From Candidatus Alloscybalousia intestinigallinarum (lineage in GTDB: Bacteria > Bacillota_I > Bacilli_A > RF39 > UBA660), in NCBI GenBank assembly GCA_018716115.1, contig DVKF01000035.1:1-35041 (forward strand): a DNA stretch of 35,041 bases, in the 5' to 3' direction. The position numbers were made by a program, and so were the translations under genes. Position 1 is the stretch's first letter. Each line of letters begins with the position of its first letter. Under the pieces are notes generated by a model, which did no database searches, was not told the origin of the DNA, and saw only the letters and a program-made list of their open reading frames with translations. This document shows positions 4,460-34,838 of the stretch, piece after piece.

Positions 4460-4675
4460 TCCAAACAAAAACGATTTTTCCCTTCCATAAGGACGAGAAA
4501 AATCGCGGTACCACCTTATTTTATAAGCAATATGCCTATACCCTTTACTTGTTAACGGAATTACCCGATTTCGCTTCATTGGACAAGTTCATAAGACTTC
4601 CACTACCTACTTTCACCAAATATAGACTCTCTAAAAGTTTCTATCTTACTACTACTTCCACTTCAACACGAAATA
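4460..4675 (-). promoter_or_regulatory. T-box leader (leucine type)
   Basis: The minus strand carries the T-box antiterminator sequence AAGGTGGTACCGCG (4504-4517), which base-pairs with the tRNA acceptor end. A competing terminator follows it directly: CGATTTTTC pairs with GGAAAAATCG and is trailed by a T run (about 4465-4505). The 5' part has AGTA and GGTG motifs of Stem I. Two candidate CTT (Leu) triplets lie downstream of the GGTG, each followed by a purine, so either specifier choice fits leucine and the leuS gene downstream. The exact specifier was not resolved by folding. Confidence 0.9.
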
Positions 4676-18969: not shown

Positions 18970-20457
18970 TTATTCAAAAGATTCATAATTAGGTTGTTTA
19001 GGAAGACCAGGCATCGTAATAATCTTATTTAAAAGAACGATGATCATCTCACTTCCCGTTTGAAACGAAAGATCGCGAACCGTTAAAGTATAATCTTTAG
19101 GATACCCTAATTTCTTTGCATCATCGCTGATTGAATATGGCGTCTTAGCAATACAGATAGGATAATGAGAAATACCTAAATGTTCGATCTCTTGTAGTTT
19201 CTTCTTGGCATCTTCTTGATAGAGAATATCTCCGGCATGATAGACACGTTTAGCCAATATTTCTATTTTATCTGTAATACTTGCTTCTAATGGATATAAA
19301 AATTGGAAAGAAGTATTTGACTCTTCACAAAGATGAACCACTTCTTGCGCTAGTTCAAGAGAGCCAGCACTACCTTCCAGATAAGCAGAAGAAACAATTG
19401 CCTTTACACCTTGTTTTTGACAAAAATCGACAAGTTCTTGAATTTCTTCTTCCTTATCTTTTGAAAAACAATTGATTGTAACACAAAAAGGAACAGAATA
19501 TTGTTTCAAATGATCAATATGAGCCTGTAAATTTTCAATGCCACTATGTTTTAAAGCCTGAACCGTCGCAATTAAAACAATAGCGTTGGGCTTTAATTCG
19601 GCTTTACGACATTTAATATTAAGAAATTTTTCAGCACCAAGATCACTACCAAAACCAGCTTCTGTTACTACGTAATCAGCAAGCCCCAAACCTAATTTTG
19701 TTGCAACAATACTGTTACAACCATGAGCAATATTGGCAAAAGGTCCCCCATGAACAAGAACAGGATTTTCTTCTAATGACTGGACTAAATTTGGATAAAA
19801 TGCATGTTCTAACAATAAGTACATCGCTCCATCTACTTTTAAATCCTTAGCATAAATTGCCTCTCCATCCTCGTTATAACCAATCAAAATATGAGATAAG
19901 CGTCTACGTAAATCCTCTCGATCTGTAGCTAAACAAAAAATTGCCATCACTTCACTAGCGGCCGTAATATCAAAATTTTCTCGCAAACTACGGTCATTGA
20001 CATCCAAACATCTTCTTACTCGAACTGTTTTAGGATCAATTCTTAGAACATTTCCTTGATAAATATGATTATCCACAGCAGCGCAAAGCAAGTTATTAGC
20101 AGCCGTAATCGCATGAAAATCTCCTGTAAAATGAAGATTAATATCCTCACTAGGAATGATAGAGGCTTTTCCTCCACCAGTTGCCCCTCCTTTTAAGCCA
20201 AATACCGGTCCTAAAGAAGGTTCACGAAGAACAGCAAGTGAACTTTTTCCTAACCTTCTTAACGCATCATTTAACCCAATACTAACAGTCGTCTTCCCTT
20301 CCCCATACGGAGTGGGATTTACCGCGGTTACTAACACTAAATGACTATTTGATTTAGGAGTAACTTGCTTTAAAATTTTTGCTTTTGTATCGCCATACAT
20401 ATAAATATCTTCTTTACTTAACTCTAACTTTTTCGCAACATCGATAATTGGTAACAT
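18970..20457 (-). CDS. fhs: Formate-tetrahydrofolate ligase (short form)
   Basis: This enzyme makes 10-formyl-THF from formate, THF and ATP for one-carbon metabolism. The P-loop TPYGEGKTT, the family motif VHGGPFANIAHGCNSI, TEAGFGSDLGAEKF, and the closing TMPGLPKQP are present. From the ATG at 20457 (GGAGAGGG ribosome site) it is 495 residues, against roughly 550-560 usually. The difference is mainly a missing helical segment after ATVQALK (where others have about 25 residues before the HI..L region) and an abrupt C-terminus. The upstream open frame to 20574 lies inside the previous gene and is not used. The start is 2 nt after the stop of the P-type-ATPase-like gene, and the ribosome site overlaps that gene's end, so translation is probably coupled. 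Confidence 0.94.
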   Translation of the reverse strand: MLPIIDVAKKLELSKEDIYMYGDTKAKILKQVTPKSNSHLVLVTAVNPTPYGEGKTTVSIGLNDALRRLGKSSLAVLREPSLGPVFGLKGGATGGGKASIIPSEDINLHFTGDFHAITAANNLLCAAVDNHIYQGNVLRIDPKTVRVRRCLDVNDRSLRENFDITAASEVMAIFCLATDREDLRRRLSHILIGYNEDGEAIYAKDLKVDGAMYLLLEHAFYPNLVQSLEENPVLVHGGPFANIAHGCNSIVATKLGLGLADYVVTEAGFGSDLGAEKFLNIKCRKAELKPNAIVLIATVQALKHSGIENLQAHIDHLKQYSVPFCVTINCFSKDKEEEIQELVDFCQKQGVKAIVSSAYLEGSAGSLELAQEVVHLCEESNTSFQFLYPLEASITDKIEILAKRVYHAGDILYQEDAKKKLQEIEHLGISHYPICIAKTPYSISDDAKKLGYPKDYTLTVRDLSFQTGSEMIIVLLNKIITMPGLPKQPNYESFE

Positions 20458-20459
20458 GT

Positions 20460-22205
20460 TTACCCTCTCCTTTTTCCATAATACAATCGAAATAACCAAA
20501 ATAGAATTGGTAAATGAAATAGAAATCCTAACAAAATAATCAAATAAAAATCTCTTACCACAAAAAGAAAACAAAACAATAAAACTAGCTTACTAAAGAT
20601 TAACCTTTTGACTATCTTCTTTAGATCATTTTTGATTAAATAACAATAACGAAACAAATAGACTACTTTACTCATGTCGTTATCTACTATCATTATATCA
20701 CTATTTTCTAATTGACATGAATAAATACCATTCATCAACAAAGTAACCTCAGTCCATCTTTCTTCAATTTTATCACTGATAAATAAGGTTTTACTACCAT
20801 ACATTTGGGTAAAGTACTGTAACCAAAACCGCCAACGCTCTTCATTTAATCGTGAATAACTATCCTTAATTCCTAAAGTTCTAGAAACAGCATAGACAAC
20901 TCGTTCATCATCATGAGAAAAAGTACCAAAATGTTTTACCCCCAACTGCTTTAACGCCAACAAATCATCTTTTAAACTCAATTTAATCTTATCAGCAATG
21001 ACAATAGCCCCGATTGCTTCTCCGTCAACAGCAACATATAAAATGGTACCGATATCAAATAATTTATCGACTACAATATCATTTTCTTCCATAAAAGCAT
21101 AATTACCAACCAGTATTTTGTGTTCTAAATATTCAAAAGAATGACCACCATCATGAAATTGATGATGATGAATTCTACTTTTATCTACATGAACTTGTCG
21201 ATATGCACGAATACAATTCGCAATATGATCATCCCGACTATCCATCGCACAATTTAAATAATAGAAGAAATCTTCTTCATTTTCCGTCTCATATTTAGCA
21301 ACTGAAAAATCACCCAAAGTTAAAATTCCTGTTTTCGTAAAAAGAATATTTTGAGTAAAAAACAAATCGAAAAGGGAAGCCTTACGAAGAACGTAAATTC
21401 CTTGTTTTTCAAGATGAATACTCATCAATAATAATATACTTTGAAACAAAAAGGAAAAAGGTAAGACCGTAAGAATAAATAAACAAGTAAAAATAAAATA
21501 AACTCTAGAAAAAGAATGGACAATTAAGAAAATAAATACGGCAATGAGTAAACTGAAAAAAAGAATAGAAAACCAAAAAGGAATACTATAATACCAAGCA
21601 TGTTCCCTACGATCAAGATTGATTTTATTTCTAAGCGTAATTAAAGCAGAAACTTCTTTTTGAACTTGAACATAGATTTCTTTATCTAAATTTTGGTCCC
21701 CTGCCAAAACAAAATCGCCTTTTTTGACACTTAGTTTTTTAGTATATCTCATTAGAAGCGTTCTTCCTCGAAAAATAATTCCGTCAACTAGAATTTTTTC
21801 GTTCTCTTTAAAGACAATGATGTCTCCTTCTTTCACACTTTTAAGTGGAATAGGATGACAATTTTTTGTTTTTTGATCATACAAAGTAATTAAACAATTA
21901 TCATTGGGAAAAGAATGAATACGTTGTTTCGCCAAAAATGTAAGTAAAGACTCTTCTAAAAGAGAAATAAGTCCAGTAATTACAAGTAAAAATAAGGCAT
22001 ATTTCTCTTTACCAATAACTAAAAAGAGAATAGCCAAGAAAAAACTAATATATAAATTGGTGTTTTCTAGACGCAAAAAATGAATCAAAAATAAAATCCA
22101 ACTAACAAATGCACATGAAAAAATAAGGCGCGACGAAAAAAAGATATAGCTTACGGTAAAAAGGGAAGCTAAAAAGAAGAAAAACCATTTACTTGTTATT
22201 TTCAT
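20460..22205 (-). CDS. P1B-type ATPase homologue lacking catalytic motifs (predicted pseudoenzyme)
   Basis: The 581-residue membrane protein follows the P-type ATPase plan. Paired N-terminal helices are followed by an actuator domain (VKEGDIIVFKENEKILVDGIIFRG, 124-147, as in the family's GD-x-PVDG pattern). Two central helices, a large cytosolic loop and two terminal helices complete the plan. The active-site elements are altered. TGES is replaced by YTKK (154-157). The DKTGTLT phosphorylation site is TKTGILT with Thr290 for Asp. The CPC-like metal site is LPFS, the TGD motif is FSHDD, and the GDGxNDxPAL hinge is ISDKIEERWTEV. The frame is intact and a sound promoter precedes it, so this is not a decayed gene. 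It cannot form the aspartyl-phosphate. Regulation, scaffolding or ligand sensing are possible. It is co-transcribed with fhs. Confidence 0.85.
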   Translation of the reverse strand: MKITSKWFFFFLASLFTVSYIFFSSRLIFSCAFVSWILFLIHFLRLENTNLYISFFLAILFLVIGKEKYALFLLVITGLISLLEESLLTFLAKQRIHSFPNDNCLITLYDQKTKNCHPIPLKSVKEGDIIVFKENEKILVDGIIFRGRTLLMRYTKKLSVKKGDFVLAGDQNLDKEIYVQVQKEVSALITLRNKINLDRREHAWYYSIPFWFSILFFSLLIAVFIFLIVHSFSRVYFIFTCLFILTVLPFSFLFQSILLLMSIHLEKQGIYVLRKASLFDLFFTQNILFTKTGILTLGDFSVAKYETENEEDFFYYLNCAMDSRDDHIANCIRAYRQVHVDKSRIHHHQFHDGGHSFEYLEHKILVGNYAFMEENDIVVDKLFDIGTILYVAVDGEAIGAIVIADKIKLSLKDDLLALKQLGVKHFGTFSHDDERVVYAVSRTLGIKDSYSRLNEERWRFWLQYFTQMYGSKTLFISDKIEERWTEVTLLMNGIYSCQLENSDIMIVDNDMSKVVYLFRYCYLIKNDLKKIVKRLIFSKLVLLFCFLFVVRDFYLIILLGFLFHLPILFWLFRLYYGKRRG

Positions 22206-22229: not shown

Positions 22230-22258
22230 ATTATAACTTTATTTCTATAATTTTTCAA
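22230..22258 (-). promoter_or_regulatory. Sigma-A promoter of the pseudo-ATPase/fhs operon
   Basis: TTGAAA (22253-22258) and TATAAT (22230-22235) are spaced by 17 nt on the minus strand, about 24 nt from the ATG. Confidence 0.82.
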
Positions 22259-22263
22259 GCATA

Positions 22264-22288
22264 GAAAAAGAGGAAACTTATTCCCCTT
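22264..22288 (-). terminator. Terminator after clpB
   Basis: AAGGGGAA pairs with TTTCCTCTT (one G-T wobble) around a short loop and is followed on the minus strand by a T run, 13 nt after the clpB stop. Confidence 0.72.
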
Positions 22289-34461: not shown

Positions 34462-34490
34462 TCGATTAGTTCGACTAATTTTCCTATGGT
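34462..34490. repeat. Proximal copy of the ssrA 3'-end repeat (putative att site)
   Basis: This overlaps the last four bases of tmRNA (ACCA on the minus strand) and continues into its downstream flank. It contains the exact 14-mer ATTAGTTCGACTAA, itself an inverted repeat, shared with 32361-32389. Confidence 0.75.
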
Positions 34491-34838
34491 GGAGATGAGG
34501 AGAATCGAACTCCTGTCCAAAATCAGCGAGGCAAAAACATCTACAAGTTTAGTTGACTAAGCAAATTCACTAATATAGAAGTTAGCCAACAAACACTATA
34601 TTAGCTAGTTTCTAAAATTCATTACCCCTCCGAAACAAAGAGATAATATAACCTGTTAAAATCGAGCCCTTTATAAAAACCAACAGGTAAAGTTTTTAAA
34701 AGAGCCTTACACTATATGCTAACTAAGCAGCGTAAGCCATTTGATATTTGTTTCCAGTTATTTTAACTGACGCATTTTAAGATTGCCATCTACTTGCCGT
34801 TTAAGCGCAGCTGATCCTGTCGAAACCTGAACATCCCC
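34487..34838 (-). ncRNA. ssrA: Transfer-messenger RNA (tmRNA)
   Basis: The 352 nt gene runs on the minus strand from GGGGATG to an encoded CCA. The acceptor stem GGGGATG / CATCTCC forms with one G-U pair. The 5' domain has GGTTTCGACAGG. The T arm is AGGAG-TTCGATT-CTCCT, and ATCAGC / GCTGAT gives the top of helix 2. The tag frame lies at 34723-34755 and reads GNKYQMAYAA then TAG, if GGA is the resume codon. It rescues ribosomes stalled on broken mRNA and marks the peptide for proteolysis. A TGGTATAAT extended -10 precedes it, and a terminator follows. Confidence 0.96.

Follow-up and report, generated by a model that had tools for sequence, protein, structure and literature searches.

Why does the reading frame of a former metal pump, stripped of its catalytic residues, persist directly in front of a folate gene? 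The question is raised by the window, the whole stretch of 35,041 nucleotides analysed here (contig DVKF01000035.1 of Candidatus Alloscybalousia intestinigallinarum), in which a P-type ATPase-like ORF precedes fhs. An earlier note, made from the sequence alone, had called this ORF an intact pseudoenzyme of the P1B type. Three features define the locus:

20460..22205, minus strand: pseudo-P1B-ATPase ORF, 581 aa, ATG start, stop codon at 20460-20462
18970..20457, minus strand: fhs, formate-tetrahydrofolate ligase, 495 aa (Pfam PF01268, E 5.2e-206)
21321..21341, minus strand: former phosphorylation motif F-T290-K-T-G-I-L, in which Thr replaces Asp (position obtained by counting from the ORF start at 22205)

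The P-type ATPase ancestry of the protein is still readable, as had been claimed. In a profile search, residues 63-525 matched TIGR01525 with E 2.6e-24, a near full-length homology that indicates descent from a P1B-type ATPase and whose 86 bits lie under the curated cut-off of 346. The solved copper pump CopA (PDB 7r0g) matches the protein by sequence with E 4.7e-10, and the related protein of G030, introduced below, matches TIGR01525 with E 2.8e-40. A low-confidence AlphaFold model (mean pLDDT 43), for which the window protein and one relative served as input and which we used for helix positions only, predicts eight such positions.

Alignment with 61 active homologues revealed how much of the catalytic machinery has gone. 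The phosphorylation site reads TKTGI for DKTGT (D290 to T, T294 to I), the TGES loop is deleted or replaced, CPC has become LPF, SEHP has become RDDH, (T/S)GD has become SHD, GDGxND has become SDKIEE, and the Asp of M6 is a Gly. The list of altered motifs in the earlier note (Thr290, TGES, TGD, CPC and GDGxND) was therefore correct. Most of these losses recur in the fhs-linked relatives. The phosphorylated Asp is absent from all 14 readable proteins (Thr in eight, Glu in two, Asn in two, Ser and Arg in one each), and TGES and GDGxND are missing from every one. A complete SGD is found only in G196, G214 and G135; its Asp (D432) is kept throughout. CPC (M4) and the M6 Asp are gone, with substitutes that differ from lineage to lineage, and the M5 Lys (K539) is retained. 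Within the nucleotide-binding domain, the His-Pro of SEHP is lost in 13 of the 14 and kept in G030, GxG is partly kept and V/IGN mostly kept. Neither the Asp, nor the set TGES, (T/S)GD and GDGxND, nor CPC with the M6 Asp, nor SEHP with GxG is present as in a functional pump, and judged by its sequence it is near certain that the fhs-linked protein does not pump. Two P1B pumps encoded on another contig of the same genome (L045:5230-7416 and L045:11082-12932, both minus strand) are intact; one resembles CopA, the other the Zn/Cd pumps.

Close relatives with DKTGT or with frameshifts would, according to the earlier note, mark this copy as merely decaying. We surveyed about 800 genomes by profile searches, in partly overlapping samples drawn at family, order and class level, and checked ATPase matches for adjacency to fhs, a procedure that may have overlooked very diverged dead members. 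Fifteen genomes, from four genera of uncultured Bacilli, carry the pseudo-ATPase immediately ahead of fhs, and in none of them is it frameshifted. Within the window's genus, the orthologues are flanked by a clp ATPase gene on one side and by fhs on the other. Their proteins share 75% (G016 and G001) or 65% (G007) identity with the window protein, or about 30-35% (G009, G015, G006, G012, G005 and a contig-end fragment in G002), and neither DKTGT nor a frameshift was found among them. The remaining carriers, again with the gene directly before fhs, belong to genera g15 (G030, EKTA; G196, EKTG), g63 (G081 and G214, NKTG) and g117 (G135, RKKG). The upstream neighbour varies by genus: clp, a small ORF after truA, a ctpA-like gene or a surface-protein-like gene.

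The pseudo-ATPase is dispensable, as five genomes forming one subclade of the window's genus have fhs alone (G004, G008, G011, G013 and G014). In the four with a visible junction, fhs comes after clp and is preceded by a promoter-like site. A 148-aa ORF fills the gap in G014 (L099:5020-5466, plus strand) and overlaps fhs by 4 nt. In G003, of the same genus, neither fhs nor the pseudo-ATPase was found. The Fhs proteins of this genus, at about 495 aa, are some 30-65 aa shorter than those of most other genera of the family, in which many alignments break near residue 305; this shortening does not track the presence of the pseudo-ATPase.

How the pair is expressed can be read in part from the following features, to which two further Rfam matches in the window are added:

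20463..20471, minus strand: Shine-Dalgarno sequence of fhs (AGGAGAGGG), within the last codons of the pseudo-ATPase
22230..22258, minus strand: likely promoter of the pair, TTGAAA-N17-TATAAT, 11 of 12 consensus positions matched
22268..22288, minus strand: terminator-like hairpin in the gap that separates the ORF from clp, the gene before it
4486..4675, minus strand: T-box leader (Rfam)
34487..34838, minus strand: tmRNA gene (Rfam)

The fhs start lies 2 nt past the pseudo-ATPase stop in the window. In all 15 genomes it overlaps the pseudo-ATPase or lies no more than 5 nt from its stop, and the Shine-Dalgarno sequence of fhs is situated in or near the last pseudo-ATPase codons; close spacing and a neighbourhood kept across diverse genomes are what is expected of an operon or coupled pair. 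Because the promoter scan returned 20 promoter-like sites against 15.9 expected, the case for the promoter rests on its conservation in relatives, and the region is indeed conserved in G016, G001 and G007. Both the sound frame and promoter and the layout suited to a joint transcript and to translational coupling of fhs, as put forward in the earlier note, are thus borne out by the open ORF, the conserved promoter match, the 2-nt spacing, the embedded Shine-Dalgarno sequence and the pairing in four genera. An Rfam search of the window found no riboswitch before the pair.

This arrangement could mean that the protein itself has no function and that its frame is kept open only for transcription and translation of fhs, by polarity and coupling. 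That fhs abuts or overlaps the pseudo-ATPase in every genome that has one agrees with such a leader, as does the promoter-like site that fhs itself possesses in genomes with an intact pump or with no pseudo-ATPase. The protein also evolves fast, with about 30% identity across the window's genus versus about 65% for Fhs. Against it, the RNA at the junction shows no unusual fold (z 0.33), and selection on nonsense alone predicts a dN/dS near 1. Nei-Gojobori counting estimates, for which dS is high in wider pairs, gave 0.16-0.30 across the pairs compared: 0.21 for window-G016, 0.28 for window-G007, and 0.16 for G016-G001, the two most similar sequences (dS 0.13, bootstrap 95% interval 0.09-0.25). 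The corresponding values are 0.02-0.05 for clp, 0.08-0.13 for fhs and 0.11-0.22 for an rsmF-like gene. Neutral drift simulated on the window ORF produced about 7-28 stops and never zero; the orthologues have zero, their frame being open in all. Taken together, the dN/dS values and the simulation indicate that frame and amino acids are both under selection, looser than in the neighbouring genes. Catalytic residues have been lost and the frame is under purifying selection, as in an intact pseudoenzyme rather than a decaying copy. A leader would, in addition, have no derived conserved residues, yet such residues are conserved in four genera (see below), and we regard this explanation as quite unlikely.

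Where, then, does the constraint lie? Among active pumps, mean pairwise identity is 59% in M5-6, the CPC helices being highest, 49-51% in the P domain and, as the lowest value, 39% in the N domain. The six dead proteins of the window's genus that we compared show 32% in M5-6, 25-34% in the helices, 32% in the A domain, 47-48% in the P domain and 46% in the N domain. Relative to active pumps, the order of constraint is reversed: conservation of the P and N domains is about the same, and the membrane helices and the A domain decay. Regional dN/dS in the wider pairs follows the same division, with 0.07-0.14 in the C-terminal half of the P domain and 0.29-0.54 in the helices. In G005, the A domain is gone altogether, and the open frame, the P and N domains and the coupling to fhs are kept.

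These values weigh on any function within the membrane. A passive channel or carrier, for instance for formate or a metal, could have been retained to feed Fhs, in keeping with the eight predicted helix positions and the retained K539; we give this almost no credence, as the helices evolve fastest and each lineage has its own substitutes for the lost CPC and M6 Asp. Delivery of a cofactor to the membrane, as suggested in the earlier note, finds no backing either, since conservation is lowest in the membrane part and this speaks against transport across it. Metal sensing in the membrane is disfavoured for the same reason and because the canonical metal site is gone; a sensor working through that site was rejected. 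Of the "non-pumping role such as sensing or scaffolding" proposed at first, the non-pumping part thus stands on the motif losses, sensing is disfavoured, and a scaffold role is our best guess from the conservation pattern and gene order.

The conserved P domain also carries a derived motif:

20823..20858, minus strand: Y450-S-x-L-x6-F460-W461

F460 is present in 14 of 14 fhs-linked dead proteins and in none of the 61 active homologues. W461 occurs in 12 of the 14, the other two having Phe, and Trp is again found in none of the 61. L317 is shared by all 11 dead representatives and by only two of the 61. Since active pumps have predominantly polar or charged residues in columns 460 and 461, F460 and W461 are probably surface positions that have turned aromatic and would be exposed.

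What was the protein derived from? In genus g148 (G272 and G166), a catalytically intact Zn/Cd-type pump together with an ArsR-type gene lies 55-56 nt before fhs, which has its own promoter-like TATAAT and its own Shine-Dalgarno sequence. G318 likewise has an intact pump, together with arsR and fhs, in one region with two genes between. The arrangement in G272 and G166 is likely the ancestral one, and the occurrences in g148 and G318 suggest a history in which arsR-pump-fhs came first, followed by loss of arsR and of catalysis and by joint expression. The dead proteins group with 100/99-100 support in the tree, although their long branches may exaggerate this grouping; with such branches, the tree gives no resolved placement of their attachment point among active pumps, including the intact fhs-linked ones. 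The shared derived residues F460, W461 and L317 argue for a single origin. The genera that carry the pseudo-ATPase are dispersed over the Fhs tree, which points to many losses or to linked transfer.

The scatter could also reflect independent, slow decay of redundant pumps, that is, unconnected losses at one locus on their way to deletion. The differing substitutes for the Asp (T, S, E, N and R) and the absence of the gene from one subclade of the window's genus fit this explanation, as does a separate dead P1B protein in genus g3. However, the common derived residues and the grouping of the dead proteins, with the reservation just made, speak against it, as do the dN/dS well under 1 and the lack of stops, and we consider it very improbable. 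The g3 protein, from the same family (G018, L190:4770-6794, minus strand; G187, L191:4318-6363, plus strand), differs from the window protein. It has DLEHT for DKTGT, with the Asp kept and KTG gone, lacks TGES, CPC, GDGxND and F460-W461, carries an N-terminal extension and is not located beside fhs. Its neighbour in both genomes is what we take to be a DUF368-like membrane protein gene.

The reading that we tentatively favour, at somewhat less than an even chance, is that a former Zn/Cd pump, no longer pumping, has been exapted as an adaptor or scaffold that is tethered to the membrane and acts through its P and N domains, with the co-expressed Fhs as its most likely partner. The ancestor would have been a P1B-type Zn/Cd efflux pump, probably part of an arsR-pump unit that preceded fhs. 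Along with its ArsR gene, the pump lineage lost the Asp that is phosphorylated, the loop for dephosphorylation, the His-Pro that binds ATP and the metal site in the membrane, and the reading frame came to overlap or abut fhs; the sequences show this present state, and the order of events we can only infer. Selection has retained the frame as well as the P and N domains in the cytoplasm, and the aromatics F460-W461 have been fixed at positions that are mostly polar in active pumps. The altered P domain of the adaptor would then bind a cytosolic partner. If, more speculatively, this partner were Fhs, the output or location of the enzyme might be tied to the membrane. It is gene order, and nothing else, that suggests a link to one-carbon metabolism. 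The more specific version, a membrane scaffold or allosteric regulator that would bind Fhs through the aromatic patch F460-W461 and so tie one-carbon metabolism to the membrane, is doubtful. Fhs is a soluble enzyme that is not known to have a membrane partner, and this counts against the adaptor reading, as does the dispensability of the pseudo-ATPase in the five genomes that have fhs alone.

A non-pumping regulator might instead act on another partner, such as a paralogous active pump or a different protein of the membrane, in which case linkage to fhs would serve co-expression only. The conserved P and N domains and the new aromatic pair agree with this, the genome has its two intact P1B pumps, and several genomes of the genus retain fhs without the pseudo-ATPase. 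Yet fhs is the neighbour common to all 15 genomes and the upstream gene varies between genera, and we rate this alternative as somewhat unlikely.

The dead proteins form a stand-alone bacterial pump family without canonical catalytic signatures, kept by selection, whose living relatives show the presumed ancestral arrangement. If the adaptor reading is right, the family would show that the P and N domains, and not the membrane helices, are the useful part of a P-type ATPase that does not pump, and it gives a testable lead to a membrane partner of the folate enzyme. Annotation pipelines may mislabel such genes as metal pumps.

Pseudoenzymes are familiar among kinases and proteases and hardly described for ion pumps. 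Our literature search, which was incomplete and mostly outside subscription literature, found no work joining P-type ATPases with the terms pseudoenzyme or pseudo-ATPase, and no bacterial example of a dead P-type ATPase in the titles and abstracts it listed. The family of origin is that of the Zn/Cd P1B-ATPases (TIGR01525/TIGR01512; ZntA, CadA), with which the window protein shares near full-length homology, eight helix positions and the A-P-N order. It differs from the ZntA/CadA branch in lacking the Asp, TGES, CPC, SEHP, TGD, GDGxND and the M6 Asp, and in scoring far under the family cut-off. Pseudoenzymes in general likewise lose catalytic motifs, conserve the fold and are suspected of scaffold or allosteric roles (PMC10211241); the text of that review mentions neither ATPases nor transporters. 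The nearest known case is guanylate cyclase beta of Plasmodium, whose degenerate P4-ATPase domain has likewise been kept after losing most signature residues (PMC6592433). That domain is eukaryotic, of the P4 type and fused to the cyclase, whereas the window protein is a bacterial P1B derivative, separate from Fhs and coupled to it by gene order.
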